The translations under genes were made by a program, and so were the position numbers. Of a stretch of 46,592 bases of DNA, positions 19,905 through 34,200 are shown one piece after another. The DNA is from Thiobacillus denitrificans (GTDB taxonomy: Bacteria > Pseudomonadota > Gammaproteobacteria > Burkholderiales > Thiobacillaceae), in contig DYIY01000024.1 of assembly GCA_020723405.1 (NCBI GenBank), positions 1-46,592 on the forward strand, in the 5' to 3' direction. Under the pieces are notes generated by a model, which saw only the letters and a list, made by a program, of their open reading frames with translations, ran no database searches and was not told the DNA's origin. Position 1 is the stretch's first letter. Each line of letters opens with the position of its first letter.

Positions 19905-20981
19905 ATGAGCACGACACGCGACACCTCCCGCGGCGCGGCCCGCGACTTCGACCTCCTGGTCTTCATCGGGCGTTTCCAGCCCTTCCACCGTTCCCACGCG
20001 GCCATCATCGCGGCGGCCTTGCAGCGGGCGCCCAGGGTGCTGGTGCTGATCGGTTCCGCCAATACCGCCCGCTCCACCCGCAATCCCTTCACGGCCCGGG
20101 AACGGGAAGTGATGATCCGGGAGTCCTTTGCCGAAGCCGGCGAGGCTTTGGAGATCCGCGCCATTCCGGACTATCCGTACATGGAGGACCTGTGGCTGCG
20201 CAAGATCCAGGACGCGGTGAAAGCCGTGGCGGAGCCGGCGGGGGCCAAACGCATCGGCCTGGTGGGCCACTTCAAGGACGACACCTCCTACTACCTGCGC
20301 ATGTTCCCCCAGTGGACCCTGGTGGAAATGCCCAACCACGAGGGGCGCTCCTCCACGGAACTGCGCGACCTGCTCTTTGAACCCAGCAGCAACGGCCAGG
20401 GCAACGGCACCCGCATGGTGCTGGAATCGGCCATGCCCCAGGCGGCGGCGGAGTTCGTGGCCGAGTTCCGCCGCTTGCCCCAGTTTGCCCAACTGGCCCA
20501 GGAATACGCGTTCCTCAAGAACTACCGGCAGCAGTACGCCGCCTACCCCTATCCGCCCACTTTCGTGACGGTGGACGCGGTGGTGATCCACTCGGGCCAC
20601 GTGCTCCTGGTGGAACGCAAGGCCATGCCGGGCCGGGGTCTCTACGCCTTGCCCGGGGGCTTCCTGGACCAGGGGGAACGGCTGGTGGACGGCGCCATCC
20701 GGGAGTTGAAGGAGGAGACCCGCCTGAAGCTGCCGGTGCCGGTGTTGAAGGGCTCCATCAAGGACAGCCGGGTGTTCGACGACCCCCAGCGCAGCCAGCG
20801 GGGCCGCACCATCACCCACGCCTTCCACTTCGACTTTCCCACCGGGGAACTGCCGCTGGTGAAGGGCGGGGATGACGCGGCCCGGGCCCGCTGGGTGCCC
20901 CTGGCGGAGTTCTACGCCCTGGACGGGGTGATGTTCGAGGACCATTGGCACATCGTCACCGCCTTCATCGGCGGGGCATGA
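19905..20981 (+). CDS. nadM: Bifunctional NMN adenylyltransferase / Nudix hydrolase
   Basis: A 358-residue fusion. The N-terminal nucleotidyltransferase has GRFQPFHRSH (residues 22-31) and a second motif, SSTELRD, of the adenylyltransferase superfamily; it forms NAD from NMN and ATP. The C-terminal half carries a perfect Nudix box (Gly252-x5-Glu258-x7-Arg266-Glu267-Leu-x-Glu270-Glu271). The architecture matches known NadM/Nudix proteins, whose Nudix part can hydrolyse ADP-ribose. AGGGGATT is a fair ribosome site before the ATG. The next gene makes NMN from nicotinamide, so the pair forms a two-step NAD salvage route in the cytosol. Confidence 0.93.
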   Translation: MSTTRDTSRGAARDFDLLVFIGRFQPFHRSHAAIIAAALQRAPRVLVLIGSANTARSTRNPFTAREREVMIRESFAEAGEALEIRAIPDYPYMEDLWLRKIQDAVKAVAEPAGAKRIGLVGHFKDDTSYYLRMFPQWTLVEMPNHEGRSSTELRDLLFEPSSNGQGNGTRMVLESAMPQAAAEFVAEFRRLPQFAQLAQEYAFLKNYRQQYAAYPYPPTFVTVDAVVIHSGHVLLVERKAMPGRGLYALPGGFLDQGERLVDGAIRELKEETRLKLPVPVLKGSIKDSRVFDDPQRSQRGRTITHAFHFDFPTGELPLVKGGDDAARARWVPLAEFYALDGVMFEDHWHIVTAFIGGA

Positions 20982-20990
20982 ACGTGGCTT

Positions 20991-21085
20991 CCCCCTTTCT
21001 TAAAGGGGGATGGAGGGGGATTTGCATGGCTGAGCGCAACGTGCAACAGCTGAAATCCCCCCTGCCCCCCTTTAGGAAAGGGGGG
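20991..21085. repeat. Opposed pair of C6TTT/AAAG6 palindromic repeats (BIME-like)
   Basis: The first palindrome (C5TTT...AAAG5) is at 20991-21009 with a GGGGGATTTGC tail. An inverted partner with an AAATCCCCCC lead and palindrome is at 21053-21085. They lie between nadM and nadV, within what is probably one transcript, and may alter downstream expression or message stability. Confidence 0.88.
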
Positions 21086-21126
21086 AGTACGAGAGTGACC
21101 CTGGGCGTTTGGGTAAAACGCCAAGC

Positions 21127-21147
21127 CCGGCCGGGTAGACCGGCCGG
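21127..21147 (+). promoter_or_regulatory. GC-rich hairpin in the nadV leader
   Basis: CCGGCCGG-GTAGA-CCGGCCGG, ending 27 bases before the chosen nadV start. It may be a small repeat or a translation-affecting stem. No T run follows. Confidence 0.35.
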
Positions 21148-21174
21148 ATCATCCACATGAATGGGGATTCCATC

Positions 21175-22584
21175 ATGAAAAACGCAGCCAGCTTGCTCGG
21201 GTACAACCCGATTCTCGACACCGACTCCTACAAGGCCAGTCACTACCTGCAATACCCGCCCGGCGCCCAGGGGCTGTTCGCCTACATCGAATCCCGGGGC
21301 GGGGAATACGACCGGACCCTGTTCTTCGGCTTGCAGTACATCCTGGAACGCTACCTCTCCACCCCCGTCACCGACGCCATGGTGGACGAGGCCCGGGACC
21401 TCTTCGCGGCCCACGGCGAGCCCTTCAACGAAGCGGGCTGGCGCTACATCGTGCAGCGCCACGGCGGCCGCCTGCCCCTGGAAATCCGCGCCGTGCCGGA
21501 GGGTAGCCTCATCCCCACCGGCAACGCCCTGGTCACCGTGCGCTCCACCGATCCGGAAGTGTTCTGGCTGGTCTCCTACGTGGAAACCTTGCTGATGCGG
21601 GTCTGGTATCCGCTTACCGTGGCCACCCAGTCCTGGGCCATCAAGCAGACCATCGCCGACTACCTTCGGGCCACCAGCGACGATCCGCAGGGGCAGTTGC
21701 TGTTCAAGCTCCACGACTTCGGCGCCCGGGGCGTGTCCAGCGAGGAATCCGCCGGCATCGGCGGCATGGCCCACCTGGTGAACTTCCGGGGCAGCGACAC
21801 CCTGAGCGCCGTGCGCTATGCCCGGGCCTACTACGACGAGCCCATGGCCGCCTTCTCCATCCCCGCTGCCGAGCACTCCACCATCACCAGTTGGGGACGG
21901 GGCCGGGAGCTGGCTGCCTACCGCAACATGCTCAGCCAGTTCGGCGGGCCGGGCAAAATGTTCGCCTGCGTGTCGGACAGCTACGACCTCTATGCCGCCA
22001 TCGAAAACCTCTGGGGCCGGGAACTGCGCCAGGACCTCGTGGACTCCGGCGGCACGGTGGTCATCCGCCCCGACTCGGGCAACCCGGTGGAAGTGGCCCT
22101 GCGCGCCGCCATCCTGCTCGACAACGCCTTCGGCCATGAGGTCAACAGCAAGGGCTTCCGGGTGCTCAGGCACGTGCGGGTGATCTACGGCGACGGCATC
22201 AACCGCCGCTCCGTCCGGGACATCCTGGCCAACCTGAAGATCAACGGCTACGCCGCCGACAACATCGCCTTCGGCATGGGCGGCGCCCTGTTGCAACAGG
22301 TCAACCGGGACACCCAGCGGATGGCCATGAAGACCTCCGCCATCCTGCTTCCCGATGGCTGGCACGAGGTCTTCAAGGCCCCCGCCACCGACCCGGGCAA
22401 GACCTCCAAGAAGGGCGTGCTGTCCACCTTCAGGAACCGTCTCACCGGGGAGTTCCTGACCATCCGCACCGACCAGGCCCGCATCGACAGCGAGTGGGAA
22501 GAGGTGATGCGGGACGTCTGGCGGGACGGGACCTTGCTGGTGCGGCAGAGCTTCGCGGAGATCCGGGCGCGCAGTGAGGGTTAG
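21175..22584 (+). CDS. nadV: Nicotinamide phosphoribosyltransferase
   Basis: The chosen ATG at 21175 (after GGGGAT) gives 469 residues; an in-frame ATG at 21157 is possible but has no ribosome site. The sequence matches the NAMPT/NadV family: DTDSYKASHYLQYPPG near the start, FGLQYILERYL, the substrate-binding FKLHDFGARGVSSEESA, PAAEHSTITSWG and the phosphate-binding VIRPDSGNP, plus GDGIN. It converts nicotinamide and PRPP to NMN, which the neighbouring NadM turns into NAD. The stop codon overlaps that of the convergent speD gene (TTA/TAG at 22581-22584). Confidence 0.96.
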   Translation: MKNAASLLGYNPILDTDSYKASHYLQYPPGAQGLFAYIESRGGEYDRTLFFGLQYILERYLSTPVTDAMVDEARDLFAAHGEPFNEAGWRYIVQRHGGRLPLEIRAVPEGSLIPTGNALVTVRSTDPEVFWLVSYVETLLMRVWYPLTVATQSWAIKQTIADYLRATSDDPQGQLLFKLHDFGARGVSSEESAGIGGMAHLVNFRGSDTLSAVRYARAYYDEPMAAFSIPAAEHSTITSWGRGRELAAYRNMLSQFGGPGKMFACVSDSYDLYAAIENLWGRELRQDLVDSGGTVVIRPDSGNPVEVALRAAILLDNAFGHEVNSKGFRVLRHVRVIYGDGINRRSVRDILANLKINGYAADNIAFGMGGALLQQVNRDTQRMAMKTSAILLPDGWHEVFKAPATDPGKTSKKGVLSTFRNRLTGEFLTIRTDQARIDSEWEEVMRDVWRDGTLLVRQSFAEIRARSEG

Positions 22585-22991
22585 TCGAGCTCGTCCCCCT
22601 CTCCCGCACGCGGGAGAGGGGGCGAGGGTGAGGGGAAAGCCGGGTTTCCCCCGCGCCTCTGCAGGTGGGTCTCCACCCTCTGCGGTTGCAGCGCCTGGCG
22701 CAATACCGCCAGGGCGGGCAGGGGATCCCGCTGGCCACAGAGGAAGATGTCGATGGCCATGTAGTCCCTTTCCGGCCAGGTGTGCAGGCTGATGTGGGAT
22801 TCCGCCAGGATTGCCACGCCGGTGATGCCGCCGTCTTCGCCGAAGCCATGCAAGCGCACGTCCAGCACTCGAGCGCCGCAGGCGGCAGCCGCCTGGCGCA
22901 GGATGGGCTCCAGCCAGGCCGGATTCGGGGGCCGGATGGCCTGCCAGAAGTCGATGAGCAGGTGCTGGCCGGGGGCGTAGGCGTCATTCAT
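22581..22991 (-). CDS. speD: S-adenosylmethionine decarboxylase proenzyme
   Basis: A 136-residue prokaryotic-type AdoMet decarboxylase. The self-cleavage site is Glu64-Ser65 in AESHISLHTWPE, giving a pyruvoyl group at Ser65; the processing and catalytic partners His70 and Cys85 are present, at the spacing of the Thermotoga enzyme. It makes decarboxylated AdoMet, the aminopropyl donor. It is the last gene of the ten-gene operon that also holds a membrane-fused spermidine synthase-like enzyme, and it overlaps the gene upstream by 8 bases. About 20 C-terminal residues (from NPAFPSPSPPLPRAGEG) are encoded by a palindromic repeat and are probably dispensable. Confidence 0.93.
   Translation of the reverse strand: MNDAYAPGQHLLIDFWQAIRPPNPAWLEPILRQAAAACGARVLDVRLHGFGEDGGITGVAILAESHISLHTWPERDYMAIDIFLCGQRDPLPALAVLRQALQPQRVETHLQRRGGNPAFPSPSPPLPRAGEGDELD
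22595..22635. repeat. Palindromic repeat of a second family, overlapping the 3' end of speD
   Basis: Arms CCCCCTCTCCCG (22595-22606) and CGGGAGAGGGGG (22611-22622) with a 4-base loop, then a CGAGGGTGAGGGG tail. It lies just past the nadV stop and inside the convergent speD frame, where it may serve as a terminator for nadV while being translated in speD. Confidence 0.85.
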
Positions 22992-24078
22992 GGTTGAGGA
23001 ACAGGGTGCGTTTCCAGGGATTGTCGGGGCCGCCCATGCGCCAGATGAAGGCGTCGAGCAGGTAATGGGTGATCTGGGGCAGGGCCAGCAGGGGCACCAG
23101 CCAAGAGAGCAGGGTGGGATCGTCCAGGGCGGGCAGGGCGGAGAAGGCCGGGAACAACTCGGCGTGGTCCCGCCAGACCAGTCCGTCCCACAAGCCCTCT
23201 TCCAGGTAAGCGATGAGGAACAGCGCGGCCACGAACAGCAGGACGCCGGCCCGAGTGAACAGGGTCCGGACGGGCAGCAGGAAGTCGCTCCTGTCCTGTT
23301 CCAGCTGTTGCTGGTTGCGGCCGTATATCCAGATCAGGGCCAGATAGGGCACCCCGTGGGCAATGACATTGGTAGCAGTAAAGGCCAGATCGTTGTCGAA
23401 GACCAGGATGCCCACATACCAGGACAGGCCGGTGCCCAGCAACATCAGGTTCTTGGGCAGGTTGAGGCAGCGCCGGGCCAGAGCGAAGCGGATTTCCTTG
23501 AGGCCGTAGGCCAGGATCAACGCCACATAGAGCCAGCCGGTAGCGCTGGCCACAGCGGGTGCGTCGAAGGCCAGGAAATCCCCCGCCACGAACCAGTCGA
23601 ACTGGCGGGGCTGGCAGTGCCAGGCGATGAGGGGATACAGGGTGGCGGCGTAGATCAGGGCCTGGTCCAGCCACTTTGCCCAAGGTGGATCCCCCGCCTC
23701 GGCGCGCCGGTAGATCATGACGAAGCCATACTGCTGGCGCACAAAATGGAAGGCTGCCAGATAGGCCAGCACCCGCCAGAAGACCAGATCCCCCAGGCGG
23801 TAGAGCACCACCCCCAGCACCAGGCCCACCAGAGGCGTCATCACGTAGAGGGCCTGCCGGGCGCGCAGTTCTTTGCGGTCCAGGTAGGTGCGGAACACCG
23901 TGCTCCAGACGTGGCCCACGTCTACCCCCACGATGAGCAGCAGCCAGAGGATGGGTGGTGTCTCGGCGATGGCCTCCACCCGGTCACCCAGGGCCAGCAC
24001 CAGGCCGGTGACGAGAAAGGCGGGAGCCAGGATGAAGGCGCCATCCAAGGGCAGGGAATGGATCCAGGGTTGCTTCAT
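22984..24078 (-). CDS. Polytopic membrane protein with intramembrane histidines, unknown function
   Basis: The ATG at 24078 overlaps the stop of the flavoprotein gene (ATGA) and gives 364 residues. About nine or ten hydrophobic segments fill the protein. Histidines recur in or at the edges of helices: GHVWSTVFR (about 58), FHFVRQQYG (about 114), AHGVPYLALIW (about 243) and ITHYLLDAFIW (near the end). Such a pattern recalls membrane di-metal or haem enzymes, but no named family motif is recognised, so that is only a suggestion. It lies between the exported amine-oxidase-like gene and speD in the operon, which links it to polyamine or membrane amine chemistry. Confidence 0.8.
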   Translation of the reverse strand: MKQPWIHSLPLDGAFILAPAFLVTGLVLALGDRVEAIAETPPILWLLLIVGVDVGHVWSTVFRTYLDRKELRARQALYVMTPLVGLVLGVVLYRLGDLVFWRVLAYLAAFHFVRQQYGFVMIYRRAEAGDPPWAKWLDQALIYAATLYPLIAWHCQPRQFDWFVAGDFLAFDAPAVASATGWLYVALILAYGLKEIRFALARRCLNLPKNLMLLGTGLSWYVGILVFDNDLAFTATNVIAHGVPYLALIWIYGRNQQQLEQDRSDFLLPVRTLFTRAGVLLFVAALFLIAYLEEGLWDGLVWRDHAELFPAFSALPALDDPTLLSWLVPLLALPQITHYLLDAFIWRMGGPDNPWKRTLFLNHE

Positions 24079-25697
24079 GTCGGGTGGGGTCCGTGCCGGA
24101 TGGCGGCGTCCGCCGCCCGGATACCGTAGGTGTAGGCCTCTTCGAATATCGAGATGCCCGCCATGTCCGAGTGGGCGAAAAACAGTGGCGGGTGGTCCTG
24201 CAACGCCTGTTGCCGGGCTTTTCCCCAGATGAAGCCCGGCACGGGTCGGACCATGGCGTGGCCCCAAAGGCGCAGGTCGATGCGCCGGATGGCACCGGCC
24301 AGTTCCGGGTGCATGCGCAGGATTTCCTGGGCGATCAGGGTCTTCCAGGTTTCCCCATTCCGCGCCAGGGCTTCCGCCCGGGCGGCTGCGGGGGGCAGGT
24401 GGTCCAGGGGCCAGTAGGCGGTGATGACGGTTTGCCTGGGGTTCATGGCCAGATGCTGGTGGGTGGCCACCACATAGCCCAGCATGGATTGACCGTAGGC
24501 AACGTTGTCCCAGGCCAGTTCGGCCCCGGGCCCGGCGGGCAGGCGATCCAGGCTGATATTGGCCACAAGCCAGGGGGAGTAGTGGAAGTCCCCGGCGTCG
24601 GGTCTTGCCGCGGGGGAATGGACAATGCGGGCAGCCACGAAGCGGGGCACTGCCAGGATCACGGCACGGGACTCCACCAGCAGCACTGTGTCTTCCTCAG
24701 GCAGATAGAGGTTGGTCAGGGGGCGTGGACCGTCCTGGACCCCCACGGCCAGGGCGCGGGTACGAATCTGCCCAGCAAAGGGCGCGGCCAGGCGCTCCAC
24801 CAGCCAGCCGTTGCCCTGGGGCCAGGTCAGCACGGTTTCCCGGTCAGTGTTGGCCGCCCGTCCGTTGCGGGCGGCGAAGTAATGGATGCCAGCCCAGGCG
24901 GACACCTGGGCCAAGCCCGCGCCGTAGTCGTCCCGGCAACTGTAGTCGAGCAGCCAGAGCAAGTGTTCACCGCCATAGTCCTGGTCCTCCAGCCAGGCGG
25001 CAAAGCTGATCCGGTCCAGGGCACGCAGGGCCGGGTCGGCGGAACTGGCATCGATGGGTATACAGAAGGCCCGCCGCCCATCCTGGCCGCGCAGGTTCCT
25101 GAACGTCTCCATCTGGGCGAAAAAGCGCTGATGCTCGGCCTGTTCCGCCTTGCTCACCCCCAACTTGGGCAACAGGCCTTCCTGCCACTGGCCGTACATG
25201 AGCAGGCGTTCATCTGGGTCGGCGCAAAGGGCGTAGTCGTCGTAGATGGGCAGGCCCTTCTCGTAGCCGGTGATGATTCCCAGGCGTTCGAACAGGCGCC
25301 GCACTTCCGTGGATTCCTCGCTGGGCAGGGGGACGTAGTGGGCGCCCCAGGGAAAGGCGGTGATGGCGTTCGTCCCGCTTCTGGAATGGCCTCCCACCTG
25401 GTCCTCCATTTCCGCTAGCAGGAAATCCCGCCCGGCGTCGTGCAGACGCAAACCCGCCGCCAGGCCGGAAACGCCGCCGCCAATGACGAGCACTTCCGTT
25501 TTTACTCGACGCGAAGGCGGGGGAAAGCGGCCTTCCCGCAGCCGATGTCCCAGGGCCGCATCCGGCCCCAGCAACTCACCGGGAATCCGGTCCGGCTTGG
25601 TGCGGGGCCAGAGCCAGGTGCCCAGACCGGCAGCGACAAGTCCGGATGCGCCGAGAAGCAGGCGCCGGCGGGCGGGGGATCGGATTGGCCAAATCAA
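24075..25697 (-). CDS. Exported FAD-dependent amine-oxidase-like protein
   Basis: A TTG at 25697 overlapping the preceding stop (TTGA) gives 540 residues; no other start fits. The N-terminus has a run of arginines and a hydrophobic helix (SPARRRLLLGASGLVAAGLG), resembling a Tat signal, as expected for a folded flavoprotein sent to the periplasm. An FAD-binding Rossmann motif, VIGGGVSGLAAG (Gly73-Gly78), with Glu96 and VGGHSRSG follows, and the C-terminus has the FAD-contact DMAGISIFEEAYTYG typical of flavin monoamine oxidases and phytoene-desaturase-like proteins. Oxidation of a polyamine or related amine is inferred from its neighbours, SpeD and the SpeE-like protein; the substrate is not shown by the sequence. 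Confidence 0.82.
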   Translation of the reverse strand: MIWPIRSPARRRLLLGASGLVAAGLGTWLWPRTKPDRIPGELLGPDAALGHRLREGRFPPPSRRVKTEVLVIGGGVSGLAAGLRLHDAGRDFLLAEMEDQVGGHSRSGTNAITAFPWGAHYVPLPSEESTEVRRLFERLGIITGYEKGLPIYDDYALCADPDERLLMYGQWQEGLLPKLGVSKAEQAEHQRFFAQMETFRNLRGQDGRRAFCIPIDASSADPALRALDRISFAAWLEDQDYGGEHLLWLLDYSCRDDYGAGLAQVSAWAGIHYFAARNGRAANTDRETVLTWPQGNGWLVERLAAPFAGQIRTRALAVGVQDGPRPLTNLYLPEEDTVLLVESRAVILAVPRFVAARIVHSPAARPDAGDFHYSPWLVANISLDRLPAGPGAELAWDNVAYGQSMLGYVVATHQHLAMNPRQTVITAYWPLDHLPPAAARAEALARNGETWKTLIAQEILRMHPELAGAIRRIDLRLWGHAMVRPVPGFIWGKARQQALQDHPPLFFAHSDMAGISIFEEAYTYGIRAADAAIRHGPHPT

Positions 25698-26095
25698 TCG
25701 CCGAACCCCATGCGCACTGCTGCCATGCTAAAGGCGAACAGAAAACCGTAGAAAAAGGTTTCCAGGCGGATGGTTTCCACGCCTCGTTTGCGTAAGCGCG
25801 CACCGAGCAGGGCCATCGTCAGGCCGACCAATAGCGGTGTCAGAAAAAGATTGATCCACCGGGCAGCTGGGCTATGTACGAAAAGCGCGGGAAAGATGAG
25901 CAGGCTGAATCCGCCAGTTGCAGCGCCGAACAAGGCGTAGCCGGTGGCCGCCAGCCAGGGATTGATGGGTGCTCTCCGGAACGGCTCTCGCACGGCTCGG
26001 ACTCCCAGCTCTGCCAATACTTCGAAGACGATCTGCAAGAGGACTTCTAGGAGGGTCTGGAGTAGATAGAGAACGATTTCGGCCAGTATTTCCAT
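25694..26095 (-). CDS. Small membrane protein of the polyamine operon, unknown function
   Basis: A 133-residue protein. The first 30 residues form an amphipathic/hydrophobic helix rich in Glu, Leu and Val (EILAEIVLYLLQTLLEVLL), followed by three membrane segments (about 46-70, 80-97 and 110-128). It sits 6 bases after the SpeE-like gene and overlaps the flavoprotein gene by 4 bases, so it is translationally coupled. It could be a membrane partner of either. No named family is recognised. Confidence 0.75.
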   Translation of the reverse strand: MEILAEIVLYLLQTLLEVLLQIVFEVLAELGVRAVREPFRRAPINPWLAATGYALFGAATGGFSLLIFPALFVHSPAARWINLFLTPLLVGLTMALLGARLRKRGVETIRLETFFYGFLFAFSMAAVRMGFGD

Positions 26096-26101
26096 GGTGC
26101 G

Positions 26102-27652
26102 CTACCAGGCCGCCGCGTAGGCGCCCCATTCCTCATCGAAATAACGCACCAGCAATTGATTGTCCAGCCGCTGCACGCCGGCGGCGACGTAGTCCATGTC
26201 GGCGGGGAAGTGCAGCATGCGCGGGGTTTCCGCCACGCTCACGTAGCGCAGGCCTTCGGGGTAACGGGCTGGCGGTGTCCAGGGCTTCTGGCCGGCCAAC
26301 AGGTAGCCCCATTCGCCGAAGGCGGGCACATAGGCATGGTAGGGCGTGACCTGGAAACCGGCGGCAGCCAGGGTGTCGTGGACGCACCAGTAGGATTTGC
26401 GCGCCACCAGGGGCGAAGTGCTCTGCACCACGATGCGGGTGTCCGCATGGGTGAGCCCACCCAGGGCCTTGTAGAAACTCAGGGAATAGAGCTTGCCGAT
26501 GGAATAGTTTGAAGGGTCCGGCAGATCGATGACGATGGCGTCGAAGGGGGCTAGCCGTCCGGCGGCCTGGCGTACCCAGGCGAAGGCATCCTGGTTCACA
26601 ACGCTCAGTCTGGGCGAGCGCAGGGCGTTGCCATTCAGCTGGGTGAGCAGGTTGTTGCTGCTGAACAGGCGGGTCATGACCGGGTCCAGGTCCACCAGGA
26701 CGACCTGATCCACCGAAGGGTATTTCCAGATTTCCCGCAGGGCCAGTCCATCACCGCCGCCAATGATCAATACCCGCCTGGGCTGGGCCAAGGAGGCCAG
26801 GGCAGGATGTACCAGGGCTTCGTGATAGCGGTATTCGTCCAGGCTGGAAAATTGCAGATTGCCGTTGAGGTAGAGGCGCAGATCCGCGCCGGCCCGGGTG
26901 AGGACGATGCGCTGGTAAGGCGTGGACTGGGCGTGGATGACCTTGCCGGGGTAGGTGGCGGCCTCCGCCGTGCCGGTGATGTCCTCGGCATGGATGAACC
27001 CGGCCAGCAGGCCCAGCAGGGCGGCCAGGGCCATGCCCCGCTGCCAGTGAGCTCCGGGGATGACGTCGGGGACGGAGAAGAGCAGCCAGATGGCCACCAG
27101 CACGTTGAGCATCCCGAACAGGAAGCCTGTCTGGATGAGTCCCAGATGGGGCACTAACAACAGGGGGAAGAGTAGGGAGGCGAACAGGGCGCCGGCATAG
27201 TCGAAGGTAAAGACCCGGGATACCAGGTCGCTGAACTCGAAGCGATCCTTGAGAATGCGCAGCAGCAGGGGGATCTCGATGCCCACCAGGATGCCCACCG
27301 CCAGCACGTCGGCATAGAGGATGACCCGGAAGGACGTCACCTGCTCGAAGACCAGGAACAGCAGGGCGGCCGAGGCCCCGCCCAGGATACCCACCAGGAT
27401 TTCCACCTGGACGAACACGCCCACCAGGTTGCGCTTCACGTAGCGGGATAGCCAGGAGCCGATACCCATGGCCGACAGGTAGGCGCCGATGATGGTGGAA
27501 AACTGGGTGACGGAGTCTCCCAGCAGGTAGCTGGCCAGGGTGCCGGCGATGAGTTCGTACACCAGCCCGCAGGTGGCGATGACAAAAACGGAGACGAGAA
27601 GGAGCGGAGCCAAGTCGGATCTATGGCCGGGCTGGCGGGGCCAGCCCGGCAC
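26102..27652 (-). CDS. Membrane-fused spermidine synthase-like aminopropyltransferase
   Basis: A 516-residue protein from GTG 27652 (a TTG at 27613, after a strong hairpin, is a credible alternative). About seven membrane helices fill residues 15-225, beginning GLVYELIAGTLASYLLGDSVTQFS, a known arrangement in long SpeE-like proteins. The cytosolic catalytic domain has YQRIVL, the AdoMet/dcAdoMet-binding GGGDG (298-302), DLDP and a DLPDP motif at about 375 followed by LYSLSFY. Soluble spermidine synthase uses putrescine and decarboxylated AdoMet. The same operon encodes SpeD, so the donor is supplied, but the acceptor may be membrane linked. DUF350 and the small exported peptide precede it. 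Confidence 0.9.
   Translation of the reverse strand: MPGWPRQPGHRSDLAPLLLVSVFVIATCGLVYELIAGTLASYLLGDSVTQFSTIIGAYLSAMGIGSWLSRYVKRNLVGVFVQVEILVGILGGASAALLFLVFEQVTSFRVILYADVLAVGILVGIEIPLLLRILKDRFEFSDLVSRVFTFDYAGALFASLLFPLLLVPHLGLIQTGFLFGMLNVLVAIWLLFSVPDVIPGAHWQRGMALAALLGLLAGFIHAEDITGTAEAATYPGKVIHAQSTPYQRIVLTRAGADLRLYLNGNLQFSSLDEYRYHEALVHPALASLAQPRRVLIIGGGDGLALREIWKYPSVDQVVLVDLDPVMTRLFSSNNLLTQLNGNALRSPRLSVVNQDAFAWVRQAAGRLAPFDAIVIDLPDPSNYSIGKLYSLSFYKALGGLTHADTRIVVQSTSPLVARKSYWCVHDTLAAAGFQVTPYHAYVPAFGEWGYLLAGQKPWTPPARYPEGLRYVSVAETPRMLHFPADMDYVAAGVQRLDNQLLVRYFDEEWGAYAAAW
27626..27650 (-). promoter_or_regulatory. Strong hairpin at the start of the SpeE-like gene
   Basis: GCCGGGCTGGC-GGG-GCCAGCCCGGC, an 11-base-pair stem, begins 2 bases after the GTG start chosen for the SpeE-like gene. 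It could act as an intra-operon attenuator or processing site, or show that the real start is the TTG at 27613. Confidence 0.5.
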
Positions 27653-27663
27653 CGAGGGTCAGG

Positions 27664-27885
27664 TCAGCCGTGCACCGCCGCGCTGATGATGATGGCGATG
27701 CCCAGCATGACCGCGCCAAGGAAAACGGCCAGAGCGGTGTTCTGCTTCTGGGTGAGTTCATCCCATAGGTCCACTTTCGGTGTGAAAAATTCAAGGATGC
27801 CGAAGCACAGGGCAAAGAAGCCCACCCCAACGGCGGAGAAGAGCAGGGCGTTGAGGACGAAATTCCAGTGAATGGCGTCTTCCAT
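27664..27885 (-). CDS. DUF350 family small membrane protein
   Basis: A 73-residue protein with two membrane helices (about 10-32 and 48-70) separated by a polar loop (FTPKVDLWDELTQKQNTA), typical of the half-length DUF350/YjfL family. AGGAG lies 5 bases before the ATG. The family is often found near PspA-like, DUF4178 and spermidine synthase-like genes, as here. Its molecular function is unknown. It may oligomerise to form a membrane channel or scaffold, which is conjecture. Confidence 0.85.
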   Translation of the reverse strand: MEDAIHWNFVLNALLFSAVGVGFFALCFGILEFFTPKVDLWDELTQKQNTALAVFLGAVMLGIAIIISAAVHG

Positions 27886-27894
27886 GGGAAGCTC

Positions 27895-28050
27895 CTATTT
27901 GTGGTTGGCTTGGCCGGTGGTGGTATGGCTGGCCGGTTGGGTCGGGTTGAACAGGCTGGAGAACATGTAGCCCCGATGGTTGGCCCAGGCCATGGACACC
28001 ACCAGGAGCAGGGCGAACGCCTGGAAGATGCGGGGCGGCTTATTCATCAT
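27895..28050 (-). CDS. 51-residue exported peptide of the polyamine/DUF4178 operon
   Basis: A tandem ATG ATG at 28050-28045 overlaps the last codons of the DUF4178 gene, and the frame closes with TAG at 27895-27897, 9 bases before DUF350. It encodes a basic start (MMNKPPR), a hydrophobic core (about 8-22) ending SMAWA as a plausible signal-peptidase site, and a short mature part (NHRGYMFSSLFNPTQPASHTT in pieces, ending NHK). It fills a gap otherwise empty within a gapless operon, with the expected overlaps, so it is likely a real small gene. The function is unknown; a small exported partner of the membrane complex is possible. Confidence 0.7.
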   Translation of the reverse strand: MMNKPPRIFQAFALLLVVSMAWANHRGYMFSSLFNPTQPASHTTTGQANHK

Positions 28051-29362
28051 CGGAACTCAGGGATTGTTTGATGCCGGCATAGGTGGCCGGCATGAAATCA
28101 CTTTCCGACCAGCGGCTGTACTCGAAGCTGTGATGGCGAAGCCAAAGGTACAGGGGGTAGGGCAGCAGGGCCAGCAGCAGGGCCAGCCAGTTGGACCAGA
28201 TGGGGGCGTCCCGGAAGGTGCGCACCCCGAAGGTCTGGGCGTTTCCGCCCCATTGATAGACGCCGGCATCACTGACCAGCAACAGGCGGTAGCGGCCTCC
28301 GGGGACGGCGGGGAAACAGTCTTCGGCGGTGGTGTTGCCCTCGCTCCAGCGCTCGCCGCCGTCTGAGCCGGAATAAAACTCCATGCTCTGGTTCAGCGCC
28401 AGACGGGCCCCGCTGGTTTCATCCACCAGGATGGCGGTCAGGTCCGCCCAGTTGTTGTTCAACTGGGCCCAGGTTTCCAGGCAAAGGTTGGCCTGCTCCT
28501 GGGGTAGATCGAAGGGGGGAGACACCTGGGGCTCCTGGCGGTTGGCCCGGGTGGCCTCGAAGGTCGTTGCATGCACCAGTTGATTTTTGGCCTGGTAGGC
28601 CTGAACGAACTGGGTTCCCGTGGCCACCAGACCAGCGATCAAGGTCGCTTTCAGTACGCCGGGCACCCGGACGGCGAAGGGGGAGGGCTGGTTGGGGGCA
28701 ATGCCCTTGGGTTTGGGCAGCTTGGCCGGATCCAGGCCAAAGGCCCCAGCCACCTGGGCGGCTGGCAGATAGCGGCCCAGAGCCATGCTGGTCTCGTCTT
28801 TATCTTCTTCCACGGACATGACGTAAGGTGGGGCGATGGAATCCGTCACCCGGACCTTGTCCCCCTTCTTTACCCGCCAATAGAACTCGCCCACCACGTA
28901 TTCCACCCGGGCCTGGCCGGAGAAGAAGCGGTCGAAGCGCAGGTTGTCCGGCAGGCCCAGGCCCGCCTTCACGACTTGGAACAGGGTCCAGTGACCATGA
29001 TCCTGGGCCAGGAAGCGGAAGCCGTGGCGGGGATTGAACAGCAGGTATTCATCCCATTCGTATCGTTCTCCCTGATCAAAGCCCGTGCAGCGTTCCTGGT
29101 AGCCGATGACCTCCCAGGGCTGTCCCTCGAACTGGCCCCGACTGCCCAGGGGAATGGGGGTCTCACGAACTTGGGCCCGGGCTTTCTGGAGGATGGAAAC
29201 CTCTTCCCGGGCCACGTCCAGTAAGCTGCCGCAGTGGCCGCACACCACATTGATGCTGTGTCCCGCCGCCCGCAGGGTGATGGCACCGCCACAGGCAGGA
29301 CAGGCCAGCACCTGGGGGCGGCCCGGATCGGCAGCCTGTTCCCGGATCTCTCCGGTCTCCAT
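28040..29362 (-). CDS. DUF4178 protein with zinc ribbon and two membrane anchors
   Basis: A 440-residue protein whose ATG abuts the stop of the first DUF4178 gene with no gap. A zinc ribbon (CPACGG at about 21-26 and CGHCGS at 41-46) is followed by a DUF4178 domain (PIPLGSRGQFEGQPWEVIGY...WDEYLLFN) to about residue 230. A membrane helix lies at about 246-262, an extracytoplasmic beta-rich stretch follows, and a second helix is at about 392-410 with a charged tail. The domain is uncharacterised but recurs in gene sets with SPFH proteins, DUF350 and SpeE-like enzymes. It may bridge cytosolic ligand sensing and the membrane. Confidence 0.85.
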   Translation of the reverse strand: METGEIREQAADPGRPQVLACPACGGAITLRAAGHSINVVCGHCGSLLDVAREEVSILQKARAQVRETPIPLGSRGQFEGQPWEVIGYQERCTGFDQGERYEWDEYLLFNPRHGFRFLAQDHGHWTLFQVVKAGLGLPDNLRFDRFFSGQARVEYVVGEFYWRVKKGDKVRVTDSIAPPYVMSVEEDKDETSMALGRYLPAAQVAGAFGLDPAKLPKPKGIAPNQPSPFAVRVPGVLKATLIAGLVATGTQFVQAYQAKNQLVHATTFEATRANRQEPQVSPPFDLPQEQANLCLETWAQLNNNWADLTAILVDETSGARLALNQSMEFYSGSDGGERWSEGNTTAEDCFPAVPGGRYRLLLVSDAGVYQWGGNAQTFGVRTFRDAPIWSNWLALLLALLPYPLYLWLRHHSFEYSRWSESDFMPATYAGIKQSLSSDDE

Positions 29363-30013
29363 CTACCAGCCCTCCAGGGGACGGGTGTCCGTCATGGCCA
29401 GGTCGTCCCAGGCCACGTAACGGCCCTGGTATAGCCGGCCGCTGCCCTGGTGGATCTCCAGATTGGCGAAGCCCCCCTGGCTGCCGTCCAGGTCGATGGA
29501 CACCGCCTTGCGGCCCCGGTTGGCCAGGTAAGGCAGTTCCCCCTCGCTGCCCAGGCAGGTTGTCTGCTTCACGTCTACCACCTGATACACCTGGGGGCCC
29601 AGGTTGATCTTCTCCCCGGGCTTGGGCTTCCAGGTGGCCAGATTGCGGTTGATGGCCGAGCGGCCCTCCTGTTCCATGGGCAGTTCGAAACAGGCGGCGA
29701 AAAAGCCCTGGGCTTCCGCCAGCCAGCCCTTGCGGCCATCGGCGGTGGCCATGAACCATTCGTTCCAGGCGCCGTCCCGCCAGCCCATCTTGACCCGGCC
29801 CACCAGGGAGAACGCCACCCCGTCCAGGACGCCTCGGGTGCCCAGTTGCAGGGGACTCATGTCCGGCGGCAGGGCGGCCATCTTGCCGAAGGCCTCAACG
29901 TCCACGTCCCGGCGCAGGATCATGCTCTTGCACCAGGGGCACACGGCATAGACGCTGACGCTGGACTCAAACTTGCCCGGTCCGCCACAGGCGGGGCAGG
30001 TGTACTCGCGCAT
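29363..30013 (-). CDS. DUF4178 protein with N-terminal zinc ribbon (soluble)
   Basis: The ATG at 30013 puts the zinc ribbon at the very N-terminus (CPACGG at 6-11 and CPWCKS at about 25-30), giving 216 residues; longer starts would overlap the SPFH gene. A single DUF4178 domain follows (LQLGTRGVLDGVAFSLVGRV, then WNEWFMATADGRKGWLAEAQG). No membrane segment is seen, so it is probably cytosolic and associates with its membrane-anchored paralogue encoded immediately after. It is 10 bases downstream of the SPFH gene. Confidence 0.83.
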   Translation of the reverse strand: MREYTCPACGGPGKFESSVSVYAVCPWCKSMILRRDVDVEAFGKMAALPPDMSPLQLGTRGVLDGVAFSLVGRVKMGWRDGAWNEWFMATADGRKGWLAEAQGFFAACFELPMEQEGRSAINRNLATWKPKPGEKINLGPQVYQVVDVKQTTCLGSEGELPYLANRGRKAVSIDLDGSQGGFANLEIHQGSGRLYQGRYVAWDDLAMTDTRPLEGW

Positions 30014-30023
30014 GGCCGGAAAA

Positions 30024-31046
30024 TCAGCGGATGCGAGCCAGCAATTCCGCCTTCTTGGCGTCGAATTCCGCCTGGGTGATGAGACCCTTGGCCAGCAAGC
30101 CACCCAGTTTCTCGATGAGCAGAAGGGGGTCTTCCCCAGAGGGGCCGGCCGAGGCGCCTGGAGCTTGGGGGACGGCCGCTCCCGTGATTACCTGATTCAG
30201 GCCCTGGCTCATGGACTGGGCCATGGCCATGCCGGCCCCCAGTCCGGCGCCGATGCCGGCGATGCCACCGGGGTTTTCCGCCGCCACGGGGATGGCGTCG
30301 GCGGTCTGGAAGCGGGTGTACTGGCCCAGGTCTCCCACCATCCGCTGGGAGGCGGCCCGGTCCAGGTGTTTTTCCAGTTCCTCGGGCAGGGACAGGCTTT
30401 GCAGGAAGAAGCTGGCCAGTTCCAGTCCGTATTCCCGGAAGGCCGGCGTGATGGCTTCCTTGAGGCGGGCGGAGAACTCGGCCTGGTTGGCCGCCATGTC
30501 CACGAAGGCGATGTCGCTGCCGCCCAGATAACTGCCGATGGCGGTCAGGACCATGGCCCGCAACTGGCCGTCCAGGTCGTCCACCGTGTAGCGCTCTGCG
30601 GTGCCGGACAGCTTGCGCCAGAAGGGTTCCAGCTCGGCAATGCGGAAGGAGTAGGCGCCGAAGGCCCGGATGCGCAGGGGGCCGAATTCCTTGTCCCGCA
30701 CCGTGATGGGTTGGGTGGTGCCCCACTTGCGGTCGATCTGTTCCCGCTGGCTGAAGAAATACACGTCGGACTTGAAGGGGGATTCGAACAGCTTGTCCCA
30801 GTTCTTCAGGTAGGTGAGCACCGGCAGGGTGCGGGTGGAGAGGGTATGGGTGCCCGGGGCAAACGTGTCCGCGAAGCGGCCCTCGTCGATGAACACCGCC
30901 TGCTGGGTCTCCCGCACCACCAGTTGGGCGCCGTTCTGGATTTCCATGCCGGACATGGGGAAGCGCCAGGCCAGGGTCCCGGGCTGGTCCTCCGTCCACT
31001 GGATGACGTCGATGAACTGCTTGGAAACGAAGTCGAACAGGCCCAT
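30024..31046 (-). CDS. SPFH-domain protein with C-terminal SHOCT motif (YdjI-like)
   Basis: A 340-residue protein, first gene of the operon, with AAGGGAGAA before its ATG. The start MGLFDFVSKQFIDVIQW and the body (residues about 30-270) match the SPFH/Band-7 branch sometimes called virion-core or YdjI-like. A Gly/Ala/Met-rich low-complexity stretch follows (about 260-300). A SHOCT motif closes it (EKLGGLLAKGLITQAEFDAKKAELLA). SPFH proteins build membrane-associated oligomeric scaffolds; YdjI of Bacillus recruits the PspA homologue LiaH-like stress proteins. Here it probably anchors the DUF4178, DUF350 and SpeE-like proteins at the inner membrane. Confidence 0.87.
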   Translation of the reverse strand: MGLFDFVSKQFIDVIQWTEDQPGTLAWRFPMSGMEIQNGAQLVVRETQQAVFIDEGRFADTFAPGTHTLSTRTLPVLTYLKNWDKLFESPFKSDVYFFSQREQIDRKWGTTQPITVRDKEFGPLRIRAFGAYSFRIAELEPFWRKLSGTAERYTVDDLDGQLRAMVLTAIGSYLGGSDIAFVDMAANQAEFSARLKEAITPAFREYGLELASFFLQSLSLPEELEKHLDRAASQRMVGDLGQYTRFQTADAIPVAAENPGGIAGIGAGLGAGMAMAQSMSQGLNQVITGAAVPQAPGASAGPSGEDPLLLIEKLGGLLAKGLITQAEFDAKKAELLARIR

Positions 31047-31285
31047 GAGTTCTCCCTTGTTTTGCGCCGGTTTGATGCCCGGATATTAACCCATGGGTGT
31101 GAACGAGGCGTGGCCTGGCTGGCCATCGGGATGGAGTGGGTGGCCATGGGGGCGATCCCGGCCAGCTGGTGCACCATTCCCGGGCGGTGGCCCGATCACA
31201 AATCCCAAGCCCAGGGCTAATATCCCTCCCCAGCGAATGCACGATTACCAGGGGCGGTGTGCATCGCATTCCAAGGGAGAACACC
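31047..31285. promoter_or_regulatory. Divergent promoter region between the two large operons
   Basis: No gene is seen in these 239 bases. GGATATTA (31081-31088) and TAATATCC (31218-31225) form a perfect inverted pair of -10-like elements pointing outward. The rightward one has ATCACA 17 bases upstream (31195-31200) as a 4/6 match to -35; the leftward one has no clear -35. Confidence 0.4.
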
Positions 31286-34200
31286 ATGATCGGCAAGGCG
31301 GAGCGGATTCCAGGGCCAGGATGGGCGATCTGTGCCTTTCTCCTTCTATGGGCCCCGGGGGTCTGGGCCGCCGATCCGCCCGGGCTCCGTATGGCGCCGG
31401 CCACCGTGTCCGCCCGGGGCGATCAGCGGGCCTTGCTCAGCGTGGATGCCTTCGGTCGCTACGGGGTGACGGTGCGCAGTGCCCAGGGGGTGGGGCTGCA
31501 AGCCCTGGACCGGATGGCCGGGCTGGGTCCCGTGTCCGGCGAGCCGGGCAAGCGGGATGGCCGGCTGGACCTGTTCCTGGAAAAGGGGGAAACCCGCATC
31601 CTCACCCGGGGGGCCAAGGCGGCCAGCGGCGAGGCCCAGTTGACGGTGACGCCCTTCCAGGAATTGAACAGCCGTCCGCCCCTGCTGGTGGAACAGCGCT
31701 GGGAGCAGGCCAGTCTGGGCGACTTCCAGCAACGCTCCTACTGGCTGGACATCCCCAAGGAGACCACCGTGGCCCTGGAAGCGGCCGGCCGCCATCTGGC
31801 GGACCTGCGCCTGTGGCGGGACGGGACCTGGCTCCTGGACAGCCAGCCGGAAATGGAGCGCAACGAGGCCCGCCCTGATCGCCCCCTGAGGGTGGCCCGC
31901 CTGGTGGCCCGGCTTCAGCCCGGCCTCTATCTGCTCACCGCCTATGGGGGGCCGGGCCAGGCCTGGACCGAGTCGGCAGCGGAGCAGCCCTTCTATCTGC
32001 GCTGGGGGGTGCCGAGCCTGGCCCCGGTCCTGCGCCAGCGTTTCGTGATGAATGAGCTGGGCGTGGCCCGCTACCGGGTCCCCGCCGGTCCCGACTACTT
32101 CCGTCTGGAACTGCCGGTGGCCCAGACCGCCAGCCTGCAGGTGGGCCACTTCGAAGCCGACTCGCCCTTCCAGGGGGGCGGCAGCCAGGTGGACATCAGC
32201 AAGAAGTCCACGCCGCCGGTGGCCGAAGTGAACTGGGGCCTGGGGGAGGGCCGGGATCGGCTGATCACCGTGCGGGCCGCCCCCGGTCAGCCCTATGTGC
32301 TGCAACACTTCCAGTCCAGCCAGAGCTTCCGCATCCGCCAGCCGGGACGCTACTGGCTGGAAACCCTCCAGGCCGGTCACGCCGACGACACGGCGGGCAG
32401 CACCGCCGTCCTCACCCGCATTCCCGACCGGGGCCGGGAGGCCTATCTGGACGACCAGGCCCTGGACCTGGGGCCAGGCAAGACCTGGCGGCGTCGCTTC
32501 AATCTCCTGGGGGACCTGACCCTCTTCGTCCGCCTGCCCGTGCGGGGCAAGCTGGGGGTGCTGGCCCAGGGCATCCAGGCCAAATACCGGCTGGAGCCCT
32601 TCCTGACCGGACGGCCCGCCAACTACCAGGCCCCGGAATGGAAGAGTGGCGAAGCCCTGTTCGACCTGGATGCAGGGCTCTATCAACTGACCGTGCGCCC
32701 CGTCAACAAGGGCATCGTGGACCTGCGTCTGGACGGCGCGGACCCCGCCCTGTCCGACAGCGACTGGCTGAGCGCGGCCAAGCAGTGGCTGGGCCTGGAC
32801 AACGCCCCGGACAAGCCGTTGCCCGCCGCCTACACCCCGGTGACCGCCGGGGTGCGTTTTGCCGATCTGCAGATCGATCCCGGCTTCGTCCACCTGCTCT
32901 ACCTGAACCAGCAGCCGGGGGTGGCCACGGGCCTGGTGCTGCGCACCCTGCCCATCGACCTGGGGCTGGCCCTGCCGGTGAACCAGCGGGCGGGCGAACG
33001 CCTGAGCATTCCGGTGAACATTCCCGAGGCGGGTACCCTGGGGGCGATGACGGAGACCGGCCAGATGGTGGAACTGGCCCTGTCCGACGGCCGGCGGGGC
33101 AGCCGCCTGAGCGTGACCCCCGGCCCCCTGGAAGTCACGGTCCAGGCCGGCGCGGCGCCCCTGGCCTATACCCTGGCCCTGGAGCCCACCCGGCTGGCCA
33201 GCAGCACCCCCCTGCCGCCCCTGCCCGATGGCCGGCTGGCCCAACTGCCCGACTTCCCGGTGCTGGCCCCCGAGGCGCCCCAGGCCCTGAACCTGGCCCG
33301 GGGTGCCACGGCCACCCTGGCCCTGCCGGTGCCCCGCGCCGGGCTGTACCGCTTCGAATCCACCGGCTTGCTGGAAACCGGGGCGGCCCTGCGCGACCGG
33401 GTCAATCCTTTGCTGGTGGAGGCCGCCGGCAACGGGGTGGGCCGGAACTTCCTCATCCAGCGCTACCTGCGGGAGGGGAACTACCAACTCCAGGTGTCCA
33501 CCCGGGGGGCCACCCAGGGGGACCTGGGCGTGGAGGCGCGCTATACCGAACCCCGGGACGGGGGCGAACTGCTGCCCGGCGAAGGGGACCGGGTCACCCT
33601 GGAAACCGGTCAGGCCCTGGCCTACTGGCTGCGGGTGGACAAGGCCGGCACCTACCGGATCCAGGCCCAGGGGCTGGGGGAGAACTTCCCCATGCGCCTG
33701 GAAGACGACCAGGGCTGGCCCCTGGATCTGACATCGCCGCCGGCTCCCCAGGCGGAGGAGGCGGGCGCCGCCGTCGAGGCGACGCCGGATGACAACGGCG
33801 AACCTCCGGCGGATGAAACGGAGGGCGCCGAGCCCGCTGCCGCCTCAGAGGACACCCCCGCGGAGAGCACCGCCTCCGAGGACACCGCCTCGGGCCAAGG
33901 CGAGGCAGCGGACGAAGCCCGTCAGGTCCAGGCCCCGCCGGTGGACGGTGCCGGCGTGGTGCCCGGCGGTGACGTGACCCTGGAACTGGCGCCGGGCCGC
34001 TATCGTCTGCTGGTCCTGCCCCGCTCGGTGACCGGCCGGGTCCTGACCCGGTTCGACACCCTGCCGGAACCCCGGCGCTTCCAGGGCCACGGCCCCCATC
34101 GCCTGGTCCTGGCGGAGCCGGTCATGCACACCTGGAAGGAGCCGGACAAGGGCCAGGTGCGCATTTCCGACCACTGGCTGTTCACCCTGTCCGCCGAAGC

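Follow-up and report, generated by a model that had tools for sequence, protein, structure and literature searches.

What does a bacterial operon make when it pairs a membrane-embedded aminopropyltransferase with an S-adenosylmethionine (AdoMet) decarboxylase and a set of small membrane proteins? The question is raised by ten open reading frames (ORFs), all on the minus strand, at 22581..31046 of a 46,592-nucleotide stretch of Thiobacillus denitrificans (contig DYIY01000024.1, assembly GCA_020723405.1), the whole of which we call the window. A first-pass annotation had read these genes as one set separated by 0-11 bases or short overlaps, making an aminopropylated lipid, headgroup or exported polyamine on the inner side of the membrane and oxidising it on the outer side, and had known of no assigned function. 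The layout is confirmed here, and the operon type is in print without an assigned product in the parts of Ravi et al. 2024 (PMC11237479) that we consulted. We propose that the operon attaches a polyamine unit to a membrane-anchored exported peptide, a proposal whose chances of being right or wrong we regard as evenly balanced; the membrane aminopropyltransferase (SpeE) would aminopropylate the terminal lysine of that peptide.

A conserved gene order

The operon was compared with 25 stretches around membrane SpeE taken from sampled genomes and with 80 loci from one contig scan, these being the best 80 of at least 581 confirmed relatives, and gene order was read with profiles built from the operon's own families. 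Clade A comprises the nearer relatives of the window (89 loci, L008-L016 and L028-L107), and clade B more distant membrane-SpeE operons (16 loci, L003-L007 and L017-L027). The order in clade A is (SPFH)-(SpeD)-DUF4178(-DUF4178)-peptide-DUF350-SpeE-FAD-(HisM)-(SpeD), where SpeD is the decarboxylase, FAD an exported amine-oxidase-like flavin adenine dinucleotide protein and HisM a multi-histidine membrane protein; some loci show other arrangements or are cut by contig ends. By record title, hosts include Pseudomonadota, Bacteroidetes, Leptospiraceae, Acidobacteria, Verrucomicrobia, Gemmatimonas, Nitrospirae, Nitrospinota, Oligoflexia, Obscuribacterales and FCPU426, among others. Records from many phyla show the same gene set in the same order, so that chance does not account for the layout, and the recurrence of this neighbourhood anticipated by the first-pass annotation is borne out. 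The nearest named relative among those best 80 of at least 581 is a Thiobacillus metagenome-assembled genome (L028), whose SpeE is 86% identical to that of the window. Within the genus and class samples the operon is accessory: counting the window's own genome in each case, 2 of the 23 genomes in the genus sample have a membrane SpeE, and 20 of the 369 in the class sample have a match to NF002956 over its cut-off.

A micro-peptide ending in lysine is a conserved operon part

Between the second DUF4178 gene and the DUF350 gene lies an ORF (27895..28050, minus strand) for a 51-residue exported or membrane-anchored peptide ending Asn-His-Lys, which had been noted before without being given a role. 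It is a conserved part of the operon, recognised here for the first time, and is the proposed aminopropyl acceptor. When ORFs of 30-110 residues with a hydrophobic start were collected and their C-terminal dipeptides counted per clade A locus, a His-Lys (HK) end was found in 63 of the 89 loci, against a mean over all dipeptides of 4.8 loci (standard deviation 5.1). The runner-up was His-Gly (40/89), which we attribute to short DUF350 proteins such as that of the window. Three further HK tails that the threshold or a contig edge had kept out of this count (L041, L046 and, as tail only, L055) raise the HK count to 66/89. A Gly-Lys (GK) end takes its place in 13 loci (L015, L016, L067, L074, L081, L082, L090, L094, L095, L098, L103, L106 and L107), ten of them Acidobacteria by title. 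In total, 79 of the 89 loci have a gene for a tail, exported or membrane-anchored, with HK or GK at its end.

Ten clade A loci are without such a linked tail (L038, L051, L058, L060, L087, L091, L093, L099, L101 and L104). Nine of these have no DUF4178 within the SpeE stretch, all ten genomes encode DUF4178, and a blind check found an HK peptide beside the unlinked DUF4178 in six of the ten; in three of the ten, the examined stretch ends about 0.6 kb or less after DUF4178.

Across 78 peptides, that of the window included, length ranges from 45 to 80 residues (median 58.5) and the tails are rich in glycine (17%) and serine (13%). The penultimate residue is histidine in 65 peptides and glycine in 13, and 36 of the 78 tails contain no lysine ahead of the last residue. 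Charges flanking the membrane segment suggest, weakly, that the N-terminus lies inside and the C-terminus outside. In one locus (L014), the HK tail is the C-terminus of DUF4178-B itself. Another (L042:7251-9165) carries the DUF4178-peptide-DUF350 unit as a tandem duplicate, with both peptides ending Tyr-His-Lys.

Lysine-ended lipoproteins in more distant operons

A scan of locus ORFs revealed no HK or GK micro-peptide in the 16 clade B loci. Eleven of them encode a linked, exported lipoprotein-like protein that ends Gly-Lys after a Ser/Arg/Gly-rich tail. These proteins fall into two groups with no mutual similarity at E 1e-3. The last lysine of the larger group is an invariant column closing a variable tail (8 sequences), and a model of this group matches in 13 of the 369 genomes, with all 13 proteins ending Gly-Lys. 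Eight of the 13 had built the model; the other five were new, and in a blind check all five ended GK. For comparison, 79 lipoprotein-like ORFs were picked by pattern in the loci, nine of which end GK (the eight operon lipoproteins and one other). Lipoprotein and SpeE reside on different contigs in three genomes (G116, G239 and G300), which cover L005, L022, L024 and L025, four of the five clade B loci in which no lipoprotein is linked.

The lysine end is common to the micro-peptide, to two lipoprotein families dissimilar to each other and to the DUF4178-B of L014, and it is present also in operons without a DUF4178 or FAD gene. This bears on an alternative that shares the small-molecule product of the first-pass annotation, in which SpeE acts on a lipid headgroup or on an amine destined for export, and the peptide is a subunit whose HK end docks DUF350, DUF4178 or SpeE. 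C-terminal dipeptides are commonly recognition motifs, and the FAD protein and HisM could process a small molecule. Nevertheless, we consider this explanation rather unlikely, given that the same end closes dissimilar carriers, including those of operons without DUF4178 or FAD, and that four ligase-type DUF1190 tails end Gly-Gly although the yjf operon of E. coli has a DUF350. The earlier proposal is supported in that the SpeD and SpeE motifs are intact and the gene set is conserved; the likelier acceptor is the C-terminal lysine of the peptide, not a lipid or free polyamine.

An aminopropyltransferase predicted to face outward

SpeE (26102..27652, minus strand) matches NF002956/PRK03612 over its full length with 638 bits against a cut-off of 472. 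The motifs YQ, DE, YH, GGGDG and D..DP were followed across 38 sequences; the YQ tyrosine is nearly invariant and the others are invariant. The structural model combines an aminopropyltransferase domain with seven membrane helices (predicted local distance difference test score, pLDDT, 90.8), and is matched to 1uir by Foldseek at E 7.8e-16. Lysine and arginine per 100 residues, counted over the 38 homologues, amount to 10.4 at the N-terminus and 16.7, 22.4 and 17.2 in loops 2-3, 4-5 and 6-7, whereas loops 1-2, 3-4 and 5-6 have 0, 6.0 and 9.3 and the part following helix 7 has 4.9. Because of these loop charges and the seven-helix model, the N-terminus is predicted inside and the catalytic domain outside the membrane, on the same side as the peptide tail and the twin-arginine FAD protein. 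The first-pass scheme of inner synthesis and outer oxidation is thereby divided: the set does contain an exported flavoprotein oxidase, whereas the predicted topology places the synthetic step outside as well.

If the catalytic domain were instead cytoplasmic, SpeE would make ordinary spermidine or a relative, with its membrane part as a tether only. Such an arrangement would suit a donor, decarboxylated AdoMet, that is made in the cytoplasm, and hydropathy alone gives six segments in 67 of 90 sequences (seven in 16, fewer in 7). We regard it as quite improbable: the model has seven membrane helices, the positive charges gather in loops 2-3, 4-5 and 6-7 as well as at the N-terminus, and a gene that only two of the genus-sample genomes possess is not part of the core polyamine gene set. 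Membrane SpeE fusions, moreover, reportedly fail to restore spermidine in E. coli (Li et al. 2019).

SpeD (22581..22991, minus strand) scores 106.4 bits with TIGR03330 (cut-off 75.65) and belongs to class 1b. Its Ser/His/Cys spacing, with residues counted in the window sequence, equals that of S63/H68/C83 of T. maritima, the spacing at which the consulted parts of PMC10407285 place the self-processing serine and the catalytic histidine and cysteine of this class. The motifs of both enzymes are thus retained, as the chemistry assigned to them in the first pass would require. The window's genome (99% complete) contains one SpeD and one match to the window SpeE; the NF002956 search counts two, of which one is shown over cut-off.

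A putative oxidase and a histidine-rich membrane protein

The FAD amine-oxidase-like protein (24075..25697, minus strand; PF01593, 41.4 bits) carries the twin-arginine export signal ARRRLLLGA. Among 62 scored homologues, 41 have a strict twin-arginine motif, and looser variants are visible among the rest. HisM (22984..24078, minus strand) is a polytopic membrane protein with 35 aligned members, 40-78% identical to that of the window. Five histidines (H56, H111, H154, H241 and H338) and a Glu-Glu pair (E293, E294) are conserved in 35/35 members and H305 in 32/35. Its model shows about ten membrane helices (mean pLDDT 91.6), and searches returned no Pfam family over cut-off, no PDB sequence match and no Foldseek match at E 0.001. 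The invariant residues are compatible with HisM possibly being a metal enzyme. HisM was found in 35 of 66 HK loci vs 0 of 13 GK loci, as if it required the penultimate histidine, in a count uncorrected for kinship.

Putative aminopropylation of the terminal lysine

In the mechanism that we propose, SpeD would produce decarboxylated AdoMet in the cytoplasm, and the seven-helix SpeE, with its catalytic domain outward, would move the aminopropyl group onto the side-chain amine of the C-terminal lysine. In being a butylamine, the side chain of lysine resembles half of putrescine, and the product would therefore be a spermidine-like arm, here at the end of a flexible tail rich in Gly and Ser. Oxidation or further processing of the amine would then fall to the exported FAD protein and, where present, to HisM, while SPFH, DUF4178 and DUF350 may constitute a platform in the membrane for holding the tail or sensing its state. 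We infer the lysine as acceptor, the passage of the donor to the outside and the roles of the FAD protein, HisM and the platform. Aminopropylation of the terminal lysine is the simplest reading because it covers the invariant residue on different carriers, the membrane location of SpeE and its pairing with SpeD; it also covers the change of the last residue with the partner enzyme, described below.

Several observations weigh against lysine aminopropylation. Decarboxylated AdoMet is produced in the cytoplasm, and we know of no export route for it; the hydropathy counts given above leave the number of SpeE segments ambiguous. Internal lysines are present in 42 of the 78 tails, and the last lysine is therefore not always the sole amine. 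The DUF4178 neighbourhood (L132) in the genome of L087 shows no HK or GK peptide. SpeE and the GK lipoprotein do not always coincide: at L023 (G366) SpeE is present and a lipoprotein of the modelled family was not found by these searches, G253 (98% complete) has the GK lipoprotein and no match to the SpeE model, and in G293 the lipoprotein is accompanied by a SpeE match only below cut-off. Finally, the loci share descent and many come from the best 80 of one scan, so that the counts are not independent.

A third explanation, in which the terminal lysine is an anchor whose side chain an L,D-transpeptidase joins to peptidoglycan, with the polyamine chemistry separate or tuning the link, draws on tails that are exported, flexible and lysine-ended and on the precedent of Braun lipoprotein, but we hold it to be highly improbable since it leaves unexplained both the constant pairing with an aminopropyltransferase and the Gly-Gly ends of ligase operons.

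Remaining parts and neighbouring genes

The ten ORFs run contiguously from 31046 to 22581, with junction gaps of 10, 0, 9, 11 and 6 bases and overlaps of 11, 4, 4 and 8 (taking MREYTC, at 30013, as the start of DUF4178-A). Pfam and NCBIfam profile matches over cut-off support the family identities proposed in the first pass wherever families exist: SPFH with SHOCT, two DUF4178, DUF350, spermine/spermidine synthase, flavin amine-oxidase-like and AdoMet decarboxylase. The 51-residue peptide, the 133-residue membrane protein and HisM remained below the cut-off of every family in these databases, and no CesT/Tir-PspA dyad was identified by Pfam among the ten products. No sigma-70-type promoter site was found in 30900-31400.

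All genes of the putative platform lie on the minus strand. The first encodes a 340-residue SPFH/Band-7 protein with a C-terminal SHOCT domain (30024..31046; PF13421 245.5 bits, PF09851 33.5 bits); a simple hydropathy count on some homologues from other loci gave no membrane segments between band-7 and SHOCT. It is followed by DUF4178-A (29363..30013; PF13785 37.9 bits, cut-off 25), with CxxC pairs in a zinc-ribbon-like N-terminus, and by DUF4178-B (28040..29362; 440 residues; PF13785 59 bits), which has a similar N-terminus and a membrane segment near its C-terminus. DUF350 (27664..27885; PF03994 48.2 bits, cut-off 26) is a small membrane protein of 73 residues that ends His-Gly in the window; other short DUF350 proteins end in His. 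Including the window, the SPFH profile matches in 35 loci and the DUF350 profile in 81. For the 133-residue membrane protein (25694..26095, minus strand), an accessory part, a profile built during this analysis matches in the window and L028 only.

Two clade A loci merit separate description. In a close relative (G007, L008:7254-15427), extra ORFs, one of them GmrSD/DUF262-like by eye, split DUF350 from SpeE and SpeE from FAD; SpeD and HisM were not found in this stretch; farther along is an arginase-family gene. L087:94-9912 combines a clade A SpeE with, by eye, a PspA-like ORF of 237 residues and a 146-residue partner, as well as a long DUF350 match, and is possibly a link between the band-7/SHOCT and PspA operon types.

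Outside the operon, a 1910-residue ORF (31136-36868) begins immediately upstream of the SPFH gene and is read divergently from it. The 3' end of SpeD overlaps a convergent neighbour by 4 bases; the convergent genes (19905-22584) appear by eye nucleotidyltransferase/Nudix-like and nicotinamide phosphoribosyltransferase-like, that is, nicotinamide adenine dinucleotide-salvage-like.

Comparison with known systems

The closest published context is the band-7/SHOCT variant of the DUF350-spermine-synthase operons, which the consulted parts of PMC11237479 describe as related to the phage-shock context but free of PspA. As in the variant reported there, a single operon of the window joins Band-7/SHOCT and DUF350 with an AdoMet decarboxylase and a polyamine oxidase. 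Two membrane segments between band-7 and SHOCT are given as a feature of the published variant; a neighbouring variant contains DUF4178 and a spermine synthase fused to seven transmembrane segments. These parts of the paper propose a tie of the operons to polyamines and membranes, and this published gene context is the basis of the envelope-stress idea raised in the first pass. Unlike our account, they mention neither micro-peptide, HisM nor lysine-ended tails and give no acceptor (PMC11237479), and searches of the literature collection consulted listed no paper on the micro-peptide, HisM or the tail ends.

The pairing of SpeD with a membrane-fused aminopropyltransferase of no known product has a second parallel. 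A membrane-fused spermidine synthase paired with AdoMet decarboxylase reportedly occurs in many bacteria that nonetheless are without spermidine (Li et al. 2019). In light of such reports the product of membrane SpeE and SpeD is an open question; unlike that system, for which no acceptor is said to have been named, the window offers a candidate in its tiny, conserved and genetically linked peptide, in which a single chemical group is invariant.

The E. coli yjf and ygi operons resemble the window in having an exported Ser/Gly/Arg-rich tail protein, a polyamine enzyme acting on peptides and, in yjf, a DUF350. RefSeq names an enzyme of yjfIJKLMC peptide--spermidine ligase, and ygiBC has a second ligase; YjfC and YgiC are said to be peptide-spermidine ligases that go with YjfM and YgiB (Pederick et al. 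2023), which we infer to be their substrates. YjfM ends Trp-Gly-Gly and YgiB Met-Gly-Gly, and two more DUF1190 proteins from a search of 143 genomes also end Gly-Gly, one of them encoded next to a GSP_synth gene, giving 4/4 tails in a small sample. The tail end thus differs with the partner, lysine standing beside an aminopropyltransferase and glycine beside an ATP-grasp amide ligase. The window peptide ends NHK, and the window's genome has no match to PF03738, the profile of the GSP_synth ligase.

Taken further, and more tentatively, since we would put it somewhat short of even, these tails may reflect a widespread extracytoplasmic modification, in which membrane SpeE aminopropylates the C-terminal lysine of exported tails to give a protein-borne spermidine arm, with a spermidine amide on a C-terminal glycine as the sister chemistry of ATP-grasp operons. 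The arm of the window would then be oxidised by the flavoprotein and the multi-histidine membrane enzyme, akin to the two steps of hypusine formation. If true, such polyamine-tailing of a C-terminal lysine would be a protein modification new in bacteria, and the DUF350 and SPFH platforms of the phage-shock context would acquire one job, the handling of polyamine-tailed exported proteins.

Two further systems frame the proposal. Braun lipoprotein is bound to peptidoglycan via its C-terminal lysine; the window peptide is likewise exported with a lysine at its C-terminus, but differs in having no lipobox by eye and in its linkage to polyamine enzymes. Hypusine in eIF5A and the modified lysines of silaffins would be the nearest chemical relatives, each reportedly carrying a polyamine unit on a protein lysine side chain, although these are said to be made by other enzymes, in eukaryotes or archaea, and on internal lysines, whereas the arm proposed here would be built on the last residue of an exported tail.

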